A stretch of 43,425 bases of DNA from Ilumatobacteraceae bacterium (GTDB lineage Bacteria > Actinomycetota > Acidimicrobiia > Acidimicrobiales > Ilumatobacteraceae), in contig JAFMFC010000008.1 of the NCBI GenBank assembly GCA_017856375.1, forward strand, positions 1-43,425. Reading direction: 5' to 3'. Both the position numbers and the translations under genes were made by a program. The notes under the pieces are model-generated. The model made no database searches. It was not told where the DNA came from and saw only the letters and a program-made list of their open reading frames with translations. Of this stretch, positions 35,943 to 40,009 are shown piece by piece. Within the stretch, counting starts at the first letter, position 1, and every line of letters begins with the position of its first letter.

Positions 35943-38477
35943 ATGTTCTCTCTCTCGCTCAAGATGTCGCTCGCCCGCAAGGGTCGCCTCATCCTCACGT
36001 CGCTCGCGATCATTCTTGGCACCGGTTTCCTGTCGGGAACCTTCATCTTTTCCGACACTCTCTCCCGCACGTTCGACCGCTTGTTCACCGACGTGTTCCG
36101 TGACGTCGATGCCTATGTTCGATCCACGAATTTCATCGAGGTTCCCTTCGGTGGCGAGCAGCGTGCCGGCACTCCAATCGAAGCATTGGATTCCGTGCTT
36201 GCCGTTCCTGGCGTGAAGGATGCCACCGGCGACATTCAGGCATTCGCACGGATCATCGGCAAGGACGGCACCCCACTGGGATCCGACAACGGTCCCCCCA
36301 CTTTCGGCGGCATCGCCTCGGCGAGCGTGGCCGGATTGTGGAACATCGAAGACGGTCGATTGCCAAATGGCCCTAGCGAGATGGTGATGGATCGCTCATC
36401 TGCAGAGAAGGGCGACTTCGTCGTCGGTGACACCGTGCGCGTCAATGCCCAGTCGGGAAGTCGCGAATTCACCCTCGTTGGCATCGCCAACTACGGCGAC
36501 ATCTCCTCCCCCGGCGGTGCCACGTTTGCGTTGTTCGATCAACAAACCGCTTCGGAGTTCCTCCTCAAGCCGGGATTCGTTGATGCGTTCCTGATTCAAG
36601 GCGACGGCACGATGACCCAAGAAGAACTTGCCACTGCAGTCAATGCAGCGCTCAACCCGACGCTGAAGCTCGAGACCTTGACCGGCGCCCAGATTGCCGA
36701 GGAAACGAAGGACCAGATTGGTGCGGTCGTCGGCTTTCTCAGCACGTTCCTCACCATCTTCTCGTTGATCGCACTCGGCATCGGATGCTTCGTCATCTAC
36801 AACGTGTTCTCCATTACGACCGCCCAACGTTTGCGCGAGAACGCCTTGATGCGAGCGATCGGTGCAAGCCGTAAGCAGGTAACCACCACCGTGATCGTTG
36901 AGGCGTTGATCATCGGCGTTCTTGGATCGATACTTGGATTCGTTGTCGGCATCGGACTCTCCCGGGGATTGAGCGCACTGCTTGCCGCTTTCGGTGTGGA
37001 CATTCCCACCAGCGGTCTTGCCATTCGCGGTCCCCGCATCGCCACCACGATCATCGTCGGCACGTTGGTCACACTGTTTTCTGCCGTCTTCCCCGCCCTC
37101 CGAGCAGGACGAGTTCCGCCGCTTGCGGCAATGCGTGACACGGCATTTGAGCGCATCGGCAGTCGGAAGTTCCGGTTCGTCATCGGCGCCGTCATCGCGG
37201 TCATCGGTGTGGCGGCACACGTTGCAGCCGCAGCCGGAGTGAACGACTGGTTGCTGGGCGTTGGAGTGGTGTGTGTCTTTGCGGCAGTCATCATCTACGG
37301 ACCATTGATCGCCAAGCCAGTAGCGCTGATGCTCGGTGCGCCACTCGCCCGTCGCAGTGTGACCGGGGCAATGGCTCGTCAAAACGCCGCGCGCAACCCA
37401 CGCCGCACCGCCGGCACCGTCGCACCCGTGCTCATCGGTGTTGCACTCGTCACTGCGTTCTCGGCATTTGCTGCGAGCGTGCGCAGTGAAATTCGTAGCG
37501 TGATCGGCGACCAGTTCGGTGGCGATTACGCCATCTCCGCTCCACAAAATGGATTTGGTGGTCTGCCCATTGCCCTGTCGGACGAAGTTGCTGCACTCCC
37601 CGAGGTGCAGCAGGCGACGGGCTTGGGTTTCGGCACGGTCGAGCTTGATGGCGAAGGTCGATTCGTTACGGTCATCAATCCTGCGACGGCAAGTGGCCTC
37701 GTTGACCTCAACATGGTCCAAGGAGATCAGTCGAAACTCTCCGCAAACGGCGTGGTCGTCAGCAACAACCGCGCCACCACCGAAGGCTGGAACCTTGGTG
37801 ACACGCTCGAGATGAAGTTCGTAGACGGCACCGTAAAAGATCTCGTCATCGAGGGCACATTCATTCCGAACGGATTCTTCGGCTCCTACGTCATCAATCG
37901 CGAAGCTTTTGCGGGAACGACCAACTCACTGTTCGACTCGATCATCTATGTGGTGATGAAGGACGGCGTCTCCGAGGAAGACGCGCGTGCAGCGCTCGGC
38001 GCGGTTTCCGAGCAACGAGGACTTGGCACGTTGCAGAGTCGCGAGGAGTTCATCGACGCGCAAGCCGACCAAATCAACCAGATTCTCGGTCTGATCTACG
38101 GCTTGCTTGCGCTGTCCATCGTGATCGCCGTGGTGGGCATCGTCATCACCTTGTTGCTGTCCGTGTTCGAGCGGCGAAGAGAGATCGGTTTGCTCCGTGC
38201 CGTAGGCATGACGCGCTCGCAGGTGCGCTTCACCGTGGTGGGCGAGAGTGTGATCACGTCGATGTTCGGTGCGGTGGTGGGCGTGGTGCTCGGAATTGGC
38301 GAAGGTCTTGCACTTATCGGCACACTTGCCGACGACGGAATCGCCGCATTCAGCCTGCCGCTTGGCTCCACGATCGTGATCTTGATTCTTGCCTTCATCA
38401 TCGGCGTCATCGCTGCCGTTTATCCGGCACGTCGCGCGACGAGGGTGGACATCATGCAAGCAATCTCCACCACGTAA
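35943..38477 (+). CDS. ABC transporter permease with two FtsX domains
   Basis: An 844-residue permease containing two MacB/FtsX units in one chain. An N-terminal helix (about 14-36, LILTSLAIILGTGFLSGTF) is followed by an extracellular domain (40-255). Three helices follow around 265-400, including IALGIGCFVIYNVFSITTAQR and the coupling-loop motif RENALMRAIGASRKQV. Then come helices near 410-460, a second extracellular domain (about 500-710) and a final three-helix FtsX domain with RREIGLLRAVGMTRSQVR. This is the common actinobacterial architecture in which one permease pairs with one ATPase. The substrate is unknown. Confidence 0.93.
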   Translation: MFSLSLKMSLARKGRLILTSLAIILGTGFLSGTFIFSDTLSRTFDRLFTDVFRDVDAYVRSTNFIEVPFGGEQRAGTPIEALDSVLAVPGVKDATGDIQAFARIIGKDGTPLGSDNGPPTFGGIASASVAGLWNIEDGRLPNGPSEMVMDRSSAEKGDFVVGDTVRVNAQSGSREFTLVGIANYGDISSPGGATFALFDQQTASEFLLKPGFVDAFLIQGDGTMTQEELATAVNAALNPTLKLETLTGAQIAEETKDQIGAVVGFLSTFLTIFSLIALGIGCFVIYNVFSITTAQRLRENALMRAIGASRKQVTTTVIVEALIIGVLGSILGFVVGIGLSRGLSALLAAFGVDIPTSGLAIRGPRIATTIIVGTLVTLFSAVFPALRAGRVPPLAAMRDTAFERIGSRKFRFVIGAVIAVIGVAAHVAAAAGVNDWLLGVGVVCVFAAVIIYGPLIAKPVALMLGAPLARRSVTGAMARQNAARNPRRTAGTVAPVLIGVALVTAFSAFAASVRSEIRSVIGDQFGGDYAISAPQNGFGGLPIALSDEVAALPEVQQATGLGFGTVELDGEGRFVTVINPATASGLVDLNMVQGDQSKLSANGVVVSNNRATTEGWNLGDTLEMKFVDGTVKDLVIEGTFIPNGFFGSYVINREAFAGTTNSLFDSIIYVVMKDGVSEEDARAALGAVSEQRGLGTLQSREEFIDAQADQINQILGLIYGLLALSIVIAVVGIVITLLLSVFERRREIGLLRAVGMTRSQVRFTVVGESVITSMFGAVVGVVLGIGEGLALIGTLADDGIAAFSLPLGSTIVILILAFIIGVIAAVYPARRATRVDIMQAISTT

Positions 38478-38491
38478 TCAGAAGAATTACT

Positions 38492-38504
38492 GACGCCAGG
38501 CGTC
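38492..38504. terminator. Weak hairpin between convergent permease and nei-like genes
   Basis: GACGCCAGGCGTC is a 6-base-arm inverted repeat in the 26-base gap. There is no T-tract; it might act as a terminator in both directions. Confidence 0.25.
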
Positions 38505-39394
38505 TAGAAGTTTCCTGCGCGCCTCGCGTTGATTTCGTCCATGAAGATTTGTGCCGCAGGGTGTGTGTCGCCTCGCGTTGCGTCGCGATCCACGTAGGCA
38601 GGTGTGAAGTTGGGGCGCGTCAGCGGTTGATGTGTCGTTTGACAACCGGGGCACCAGTACAACACTCGGTTCGCCTCGCCGTGGTGGGTCACCTTGATCA
38701 CGTCTCCACAGCGCATGCAAGCCTTGCCCTGTCTGCCGTATACGGCGCGTGACACGCGGCCAACGCCGAGCTTGTCTGCCCGCAACGTCTCGCACATGAG
38801 GGTGACGAGTTCACGACACTCGGCTCGCTTGAACTCTCCGATCGTCGCCCATGGATGCACTTCACACGCCCACATTGCCTCACAGCGATAGACATTGCCG
38901 ACGCCAGTGAGCACTCGCTCGTCCACGAGCACTTCGGCGATCGTGGCGTCACGCTCTTCGTACTCCATCATGCGATCGACACACTCTTCAATGTCCGCAT
39001 CGTCACGACCAAGATCCGGGCCGTGCGAGCCGAGCATCGGGTGGCGGCGTACGTCGAAATCGCGATACGTCTCCACGTGCGATGCTCCGTAACAAACCGC
39101 ACGCCACTGCCCCACGTCCAACATCACGCTCACGTGACTTTCAGGTCGTCGTAGTTCCTCTCCACGGCGATGGAGCTGCCAAGAGCCGAACATTTTCAAC
39201 TTGGTGCTCAACACGACGCCGTTGTCCCACACCACTTCTATTGCATGATTTCGGAGTCTGATTTCTTCGATCACATGGTCAATTGGTGGTTCAATTCCCT
39301 CGAGACGTCTGCATTCCACCGAGAGTGTCGTTCGTCCGAGAAGAGCGGTGCGCAAAGCAGCCATCGTTCGGTAGGTGCGACGCGAGCCAGCCAT
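38504..39394 (-). CDS. Nei/Fpg-family protein lacking the catalytic N-terminal Pro-Glu
   Basis: A 296-residue member of the formamidopyrimidine-DNA glycosylase/endonuclease VIII family, closest to actinobacterial Nei2. The family starts M-P-E-G-D-T with catalytic Pro2 and Glu3. Here the N-terminus is MAGSRRTYRT, aligning without gaps to MPEGDTxYRT, so both catalytic residues are replaced. The rest looks intact: beta-loop LKMFGSWQL with its Lys, H2TH helix LTGVGNVYRCEAMW, and a zinc finger CMRCG...YWCPGC with all four Cys. An in-frame TAG seven codons before ATG 39394 rules out a longer N-terminus. Predicted to bind DNA without classical glycosylase chemistry. Confidence 0.88.
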   Translation of the reverse strand: MAGSRRTYRTMAALRTALLGRTTLSVECRRLEGIEPPIDHVIEEIRLRNHAIEVVWDNGVVLSTKLKMFGSWQLHRRGEELRRPESHVSVMLDVGQWRAVCYGASHVETYRDFDVRRHPMLGSHGPDLGRDDADIEECVDRMMEYEERDATIAEVLVDERVLTGVGNVYRCEAMWACEVHPWATIGEFKRAECRELVTLMCETLRADKLGVGRVSRAVYGRQGKACMRCGDVIKVTHHGEANRVLYWCPGCQTTHQPLTRPNFTPAYVDRDATRGDTHPAAQIFMDEINARRAGNF

Positions 39395-39402
39395 GTAGGT
39401 GA

Positions 39403-39408
39403 AGATTA
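39403..39408 (-). promoter_or_regulatory. -10 box of the nei-like gene
   Basis: TAATCT on the minus strand, 8 bases before ATG 39394. It supports that start codon. Confidence 0.5.
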
Positions 39409-39451: not shown

Positions 39452-39471
39452 GATCACTCGATCGAGTGATC
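39452..39471. terminator. 20-bp perfect palindrome just after the DUF4916 gene
   Basis: Arms GATCACTC and GAGTGATC flank GATC. It begins 1 base after the stop of the minus-strand DUF4916 gene, so it most likely folds as an 8-bp hairpin terminator without a U-tract. It also lies 44 bases upstream of the nei-like -10 box and could instead be a protein-binding site. Confidence 0.5.
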
Positions 39472-39472
39472 G

Positions 39473-40009
39473 TTACGGAAGTCGACCGACGGATGCGAGT
39501 GCCATGCGCACCAATCGATCGTGACCACCTGTCATCTCTTTACGCATGTGTTCGCTTGTCGCCTGATCGGGAGTGAACCATCCAAGGTCCAATGCCTCCT
39601 GTGTGGGATGGCAATCGCCCGACACCGGAACCACGAACGCCAAGCTCACCGCGTGTTGTCGCGGGTCATGAAAGCCTGTCTTGTCCGGGTCCGGGAAGTA
39701 CTCGACCACGGTGAACGGCGACGGATCTGGGGGAATTCGGGGCAAAGCCAAGGGACCAAGATCCTTCTCCAGGTGTCGCAGTAAGGCCTCCCGAATCAAC
39801 TCACCGAAGAGCACGCGACCCGACACAACGGTACGACTGATGGTGCCATCCGGCGCTTGTCGCAGAAGCATTCCCACATGGGTGATCGAACCCATGTCGT
39901 CCACCCGTACGGGAACTGCATCCACGTACACGATCGGCATCTGTCCGCGAACGGCGGTCAACGAGGCTGGGTCGAGCCAGTTGGTCTTGATATCGATGTC
40001 GTCAGTCAT
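39473..40009 (-). CDS. DUF4916 Nudix-like protein
   Basis: A 178-residue protein of the actinobacterial DUF4916 group, which has a Nudix fold. The Nudix box should read GX5EX7REUXEEXGU; here it is G-RVLFG-E-LIREALL-RHLEKDLG. The Gly, first Glu and Arg are kept, but the metal-binding REUXEE part has become RHLEKD. Hydrolase activity is therefore doubtful. The C-terminal QEALDLGWFTPDQA is typical. A G-run lies 6 bases before ATG 40009 as ribosome site, unlike the leaderless neighbours. The substrate is unknown. Confidence 0.82.
   Translation of the reverse strand: MTDDIDIKTNWLDPASLTAVRGQMPIVYVDAVPVRVDDMGSITHVGMLLRQAPDGTISRTVVSGRVLFGELIREALLRHLEKDLGPLALPRIPPDPSPFTVVEYFPDPDKTGFHDPRQHAVSLAFVVPVSGDCHPTQEALDLGWFTPDQATSEHMRKEMTGGHDRLVRMALASVGRLP

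Follow-up and report, generated by a model that had tools for sequence, protein, structure and literature searches.

The Nei2-like gene of the window (the whole 43,425-nucleotide stretch of contig JAFMFC010000008.1, assembly GCA_017856375.1, that was analysed here) encodes a protein which, judged from its sequence, is full length and keeps the residues associated with DNA binding, but lacks those of the known Nei2 chemistry. It is probably a diverged Nei2 orthologue which has turned into a non-catalytic, DNA-binding pseudo-glycosylase, of a kind that would have evolved recurrently in the Ilumatobacteraceae, the family of this freshwater-type bacterium. The suggestion of a pseudo-glycosylase with its DNA-binding parts retained, made originally by a sequence-only reading, is well supported by the loss of the catalytic residues, the conservation of the binding residues and the purifying selection that is apparent in sister clades without Pro-Glu.

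Loss of catalytic residues and retention of DNA-binding elements

The gene is an uninterrupted open reading frame whose translation (39394..38504, minus strand) begins MAGSRRTYRTMAALRTALLG; the features discussed here are collected in Table 1. The sequence-only reading had described this frame and its coordinates correctly: the start MAGSRRTYRT aligns at the family start, translation and alignment both place Ala at Pro2 and Gly at Glu3, an in-frame TAG lies seven codons upstream of the ATG (stop, RIIFTY, then M), and the TAATCT box is found 8 bases before the ATG. It had also held the H2TH element and the four-Cys zinc finger to be intact, which agrees with a PF06831 score of 40.3 bits (cut-off 34.7) and with the presence of C226, C229, C248, C251 and R243, the Pfam zinc-finger model itself scoring 13.8 bits, under its cut-off of 21.3. 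Two further replacements are evident relative to the M. smegmatis Nei2 structure 8tjg and to intact relatives, namely of Lys51 (M. smegmatis Nei2 numbering) of the RGK motif by His and of the His of HTHM by Lys, both of which had been missed.

Table 1. Features of the Nei2-like gene and its surroundings, in window coordinates
Feature	Coordinates	Strand	Evidence
Nei2-like protein without catalytic Pro2/Glu3/Lys51, 296 aa	38504..39394	-	ORF, profile and alignment evidence
N-terminus MAGSRRTY at the site of family MPEGDTIY, Pro-Glu absent	39371..39394	-	Alignment
RNH, residues 48-50, replacing R/H-G-K (Lys51 of M. smegmatis Nei2)	39245..39253	-	Alignment
STKL, residues 63-66, replacing HTHM (conserved His lost)	39197..39208	-	Alignment
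H2TH region, residues 134-205, GVGNVYRCE motif kept	38780..38995	-	Pfam and alignment
Zinc-finger region, residues 223-254, C226/C229/C248/C251/R243 kept	38633..38728	-	Pfam and alignment
HPAA, residues 278-281, motif of the C-terminal tail that characterizes the gene lineage	38552..38563	-	Alignment
NUDIX-like gene (DUF4916), upstream, usual syntenic neighbour	39473..40009	-	Synteny across family
FtsX/MacB-type permease gene, convergent, usual syntenic neighbour	35943..38477	+	Synteny across family
TAATCT, resembling a -10 element, 8 bases ahead of the ATG	39403..39408	-	Comparison across genes

The best PDB sequence match is M. smegmatis Nei2 (8tjg; E 3e-19, residues 7-254), followed by E. 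coli endonuclease VIII. For the N-lobe, the evidence consists of this alignment, which spans residues 7-254; an AlphaFold2 model (5 sequences) had a pLDDT of 36.6, too low for use. The NCBIfam Nei2 model NF040775 matched at E 2.5e-25 with 89.4 bits, below its curated cut-off of 400 bits, which was reached in none of the 221 family genomes, those with intact copies included. A PHROGs search returned one unnamed family.

Three of the replaced residues are those whose mutation has been reported for M. smegmatis Nei2, from which the window protein differs at all three mutated positions (Pro2, Glu3 and Lys51): P2A abolished AP lyase activity, E3A abolished 5-hydroxyuracil glycosylase activity and K51A abolished both (PMC11323726). 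According to the same study, the psoralen sensitivity of M. smegmatis was complemented by P2A but not by E3A or K51A Nei2, and P2C Nei2 complemented even though it lacked 5-hydroxyuracil glycosylase activity (PMC11323726).

Active-site loss across the genus, family and order

The genus of the window genome (g1) is represented by 23 genomes inside a family of 221, of which 197 match at an E value of 1e-20 or better. The survey covered 190 loci, of which 185 family genomes supplied 187 and other families of the order the remaining 3. For the tree and counts 184 were kept; those left out were L018, L021 and L031 (N-lobe missing), L160 and L176 (incomplete) and L159 (G093:C94), a likely contaminant fragment that is 96% identical to a g9 Nei2 and lies inside a g13 assembly.

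Among the same-genus genes the N-terminus could be read in 17, and 15 of these lack Pro-Glu, which is thus missing neither by chance nor through sequencing error. It had been suggested that the AGSR start might mark a conserved clade; this was not borne out, the relatives in the genus starting MLEVNS, MREVNS, VLIGNK (and variants), (V)MSEIAL or VPLRYA, and the recurring feature is a missing active site rather than the particular start of the window protein (MAGSRR). Two same-genus genes, those of G005 and G009, keep MPEGDTIY. Within g1, Pro2 and Glu3 were lost in separate lineages, with the MLEV/MREV genes retaining Glu3 and the VPLR gene retaining Pro2. Eight same-genus genes (L004-L008, L013, L015 and L016) lack Pro2 and possess Glu3 and Lys51; as this pattern resembles that of M. 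smegmatis P2A, they might be glycosylases devoid of lyase activity, and several relatives with Glu3 and Lys51 may still be glycosylases. L013 (start MSEI) was scored as lacking Glu3 through a one-residue alignment shift, Pro2 being absent either way.

Across the 184 rows, Pro-Glu is present in 75 and absent in 109; all four of Pro2, Glu3, Lys51 and the His are kept in 58, none of the four in 56, and Pro2, Glu3 and Lys51 are jointly missing in 56. On a protein tree from which the N-terminus and catalytic columns had been removed (quick search, LG model), Pro-Glu required 20 parsimony changes, or 20 losses when loss was treated as irreversible (Dollo), although the true number of inactivations may be smaller, since Glu3-to-Asp and Pro2-to-Ser changes were scored as losses. 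The largest loss groups comprise g40/g13 with two other genera (30 rows), g4 (24), g1 (15), g42 (9), g2 (5) and g48 (4). At the level of the order, Pro-Glu is found in 9 of 10 Nei2 genes (3 plus 6 of 7), the tenth having an internal stop and no readable start. A graded series from PEGDTIY through PEGDTNY, PEGDANY and PEGDAKY to full loss was observed in g48 (e.g., L073-L089 and L118-L127), where all of the changed forms belong to genomes in which Lhr was not found. Fpg genes of the genus served as a control, and the 13 fetched all start M/V-PELPE; of the 15 found, those of the window genome (contig end) and of G021 were left out.

The DNA-binding parts present a different picture. In an initial set of 104 family genes, the 44 intact copies all have P2, E3 and G4, which are scattered in the other 60; those 60 nonetheless keep the four Cys and RHP in 60/60, the GxGN Asn in 59/60 and the finger Arg in 58/60. 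Of the 174 copies whose finger can be read (7 more being unreadable), 153 carry HP[AV] as a C-terminal motif, namely 88 of 103 without and 65 of 71 with Pro-Glu. It was found in none of the 3 order-level copies and, with a slightly stricter pattern applied to the last 60 residues, in none of 14 second Nei-type genes.

Selection on genes without Pro-Glu

Pooled dN/dS values (NG86, over overlapping pairs with dS of 0.05-1.5) were between 0.048 and 0.163 in six clades lacking Pro-Glu: 0.048 in g1a, 0.081 in g1b, 0.097 in g4a, 0.152 in g4b and, from few pairs, 0.083 in g48 (4 pairs) and 0.163 in g13 (3 pairs). These clades are, therefore, not simple pseudogenes. Two clades with intact Pro-Glu gave 0.072 (g9) and 0.074 (g48). 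A C-lobe under tighter constraint than the N-lobe is clear only in g4 (0.066 and 0.101 versus 0.157 and 0.215); the C-lobe is looser in g13 (0.242 versus 0.152) and slightly so in g1a (0.053 versus 0.034). In the 24 g4 genes, all of them without Pro-Glu, the finger loop of 13 residues shows no variation and N-terminal conservation is 51%, compared to 94% in the intact g9; conservation of the finger loop is only 61% in g40 and 64% in g13. The divergence of the window gene is too great for dN/dS: comparison with 8 relatives gave pS values of 0.64-0.78, close to saturation of the synonymous sites, and pN values of 0.27-0.35 overall, 0.35-0.43 for the N-lobe and 0.20-0.29 for the C-lobe.

Lhr helicase and second Nei2 genes

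In mycobacteria, the helicase Lhr is the operon partner of Nei2. It was sought as PF08494 in draft genomes, where the lack of a match is not proof of absence, and no match was obtained in the window genome (86.9% complete) or in 21 of the 22 other g1 genomes. The single Lhr-positive genome among the 23 of g1 is G005, whose Nei-like gene is intact; G009, the other g1 genome with an intact gene, gave no Lhr match in an assembly that is 55% complete. Eight of the 22 Lhr-negative g1 genomes are at least 90% complete. Per-genus counts, to which no completeness limit was applied, are as follows: in g9, Lhr is present in 13/13 and the site intact in 13/13; in g4 and g40, none of 24 genes (from 23 genomes) and none of 18 genes, respectively, all without Lhr, is intact; in g2, the intact form occurs in 4/4 Lhr-positive and 0/5 Lhr-negative cases; and in g48, all four residues are kept in 6/6 Lhr-positive versus 6/21 Lhr-negative cases. 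Genomes in g8, g10, g12, g15, g42, g47, g49 and g51 combine Lhr with a changed site, and many such genomes carry a second Nei2. Second Nei-type genes with PEG starts occur in the larger family genomes (L198-L203, L206-L211, L219 and L224), and an [MV]PEG start was seen in all 14 second genes inspected (13 over threshold, that of G036 being weaker). A search of the window genome for a second intact nei or fpg, as had been proposed, yielded one Fpg, cut by a contig end, and no second nei or other H2TH gene in this 86.9%-complete assembly.

The association was assessed on 145 of the 184 rows, leaving out the 3 order-level rows, G093 and Lhr-negative genomes less than 80% complete. The Lhr of G093 was disregarded, since that assembly also contains L159, the fragment 96% identical to a g9 protein, and its lhr is presumably a contaminant likewise. 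In the 120 rows without a second Nei2, the four residues are intact in 43 of 58 Lhr-positive versus 8 of 62 Lhr-negative rows (raw Fisher p 5e-12, the rows not being independent), where a row with just one residue changed counts as decayed; at least one of the four is changed in the remaining 15 of the 58 Lhr-positive rows. Phylogenetically independent pairs gave 3.2 in the same direction and 0.5 in the opposite one (median p 0.375) for the 120 rows, 3.6 versus 0.0 (p 0.125) for small-genome genera only, and 3.2 versus 0.9 (p 0.625) for all 184 rows; the decisions to analyse small-genome genera separately, to limit completeness and to exclude second-Nei2 genomes were taken once the data had been inspected. 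A simple rule of "no Lhr, no active site" consequently holds only in part, given the Lhr-positive exceptions and the lack of significance after phylogenetic correction. The tendency of active-site loss to accompany Lhr absence or a second intact Nei2 is a lead, strong in raw counts, not significant phylogenetically and subject to exceptions.

Alternative explanations and proposed role

The protein might still be an enzyme. A Met-Ala start permits Met removal, whereas Met before Leu or Arg, as in relatives, would stay. The alpha-amino group of Ala2, or else another residue, could then act as the nucleophile in the manner of Val2 in NEIL3, which is reported to be active (PMC11323726), and clades lacking Pro-Glu still show constraint on the N-lobe (dN/dS 0.034-0.215). 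Moreover, the in vivo role of Nei2 in M. smegmatis needs Glu3 and Lys51 (PMC11323726), which suggests a protein lineage normally kept for its chemistry. However, Glu3 and Lys51 have gone from the window protein along with Pro2, and in M. smegmatis Nei2 the P2A change kills lyase activity, E3A 5-hydroxyuracil glycosylase activity and K51A both (PMC11323726). Starts within the genus are furthermore MA, ML, MR, VL, VM/MS and VP, and the lack of any conserved substitute makes it unlikely that these proteins share a new N-terminal chemistry; we regard continued catalysis by the window protein as unlikely also.

Alternatively, the gene may be decaying in a small genome (1.67 Mb, Lhr not found), catalysis having become useless and the reading frame being soon to be lost. 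The faster N-lobe evolution in g4 is consistent with this, and the window gene's own synonymous sites are too near saturation to yield a dN/dS value. Such decay appears unlikely, however, in light of the low overall dN/dS of the six clades without Pro-Glu, the invariant finger loop of g4, the promoter-like box near the start of most genus genes inspected and, for the window gene, an uninterrupted frame in which pN lies well under pS; sister-clade dN/dS and intact frames make a recent pseudogene unlikely, though less firmly so for the window gene itself. As regards a wrong start codon or an assembly error hiding an intact MPEGD start, the genome is a draft of 130 contigs, yet the stop seven codons upstream, the alignment of MAGSRRTYRT at the family start and the 14 other same-genus genes which lack Pro-Glu in different ways effectively rule this out.

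The preferred reading remains a non-catalytic, DNA-binding Nei2 derivative. Because many relatives have lost the residues, yet are kept intact by selection, the protein probably performs a useful job without cutting DNA. The window protein would be unable to form a Schiff base or to cut a glycosidic bond, and may bind damaged, abasic or single-stranded DNA through its H2TH element, zinc finger and groove, possibly at the sliding clamp, whereupon it would shield or mark the site for other repair proteins. The clamp, a reported binding partner of M. tuberculosis Nei2 (review PMC9690074), is a candidate partner by analogy, and the C-terminal HP[AV] motif is a putative second candidate. This role would not be the known one of Nei2, as E3A and K51A fail in psoralen complementation in M. 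smegmatis. Historically, Nei2 catalysis may have become dispensable, often with Lhr being lost or a second Nei2 taking over, and the active site would then have decayed while the binding role stayed under selection. A fuller proposal is advanced as a tentative possibility: the Ilumatobacteraceae would possess a class of pseudo-glycosylases, fixed-locus Nei2 copies engaged in non-catalytic damage or clamp binding, possibly by the HPAA tail, whose catalysis would have gone in about 20 parallel events, upon the loss of Lhr or the arrival of a second Nei2 in its place.

Relation to known systems

By sequence alignment, the N-lobe, the H2TH element and the four-Cys finger follow one another in mycobacterial Nei2 (8tjg, NF040775) as they do in the window protein. 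The window protein differs in lacking Pro2, Glu3 and Lys51, the latter two being those needed in vivo in M. smegmatis (PMC11323726), and in its extra C-terminal tail with HPAA, while its gene is not located beside lhr, which was not found in the window genome. The 2024 Nei2 study reported an in vivo role independent of AP lyase activity and so separated cellular role from lyase, leaving the mechanism open, its authors leaning to glycosylase activity as what counts (PMC11323726). The H2TH and zinc-finger architecture is also common to E. coli Nei (endonuclease VIII) and Fpg, in contrast to which the window protein lacks the catalytic N-terminal Pro-Glu. Known precedents are NEIL3 and the truncated M. 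tuberculosis Fpg2. NEIL3, which is reported to serve as a scaffold, independently of catalysis, in the repair of cisplatin crosslinks (cited in PMC11323726), likewise departs from Pro2 but, unlike the window protein, retains the neighbouring Glu and has activity with Val2 (PMC11323726). Fpg2 (Rv0944) is reported to be another Fpg/Nei-family protein without the catalytic N-terminus, its N-terminal part being truncated and a complete orthologue existing in M. smegmatis (PMC2734929), whereas the window protein has a full-length N-lobe and belongs to a family in which the loss has happened repeatedly.

Literature searches on inactive Nei/Fpg, Lhr-Nei2, clamp binding, the NEIL3 scaffold and Ilumatobacter repair returned no report of this among the matches listed, by title. 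Many lineages keep a Nei-type protein that has lost the entire known active site, beside close orthologues that have it, which renders a non-catalytic role of such proteins testable; if the proposal is true, they constitute a natural active-site mutant series in which a kept Nei-type function is separable from the chemistry. An annotation as "Nei" or "Fpg" is, accordingly, no proof of glycosylase activity.

Locus organization

In most members, intact or decayed, the Nei-like gene is situated between the DUF4916 NUDIX-like gene and the convergent permease gene. Across 114 loci, many of which are truncated at the end of a contig, the NUDIX label was given to 86 ORFs and the permease label to 95; other neighbours occur at some loci, e.g., those of g10, g14 and g49. 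TAATCT, TATTCT or TACTCT directly precedes the start in 9 of the 13 genes inspected (the window gene L003; L004, L007, L009, L015, L017 and L019 of the same genus; L020 and L039 of g9), L013 having TAATGT and L023 and two g4 genes showing no clear match. The proximity of this -10-like box to the start perhaps indicates a leaderless mRNA. A perfect 20-bp palindrome, GATCACTCGATCGAGTGATC, at positions 39452-39471 separates the NUDIX stop from the Nei-like start; it occurs once in the window, in 0 of 100 shuffles and, among 247 loci, only at those of the window genome itself, and may represent an operator or a terminator stem.
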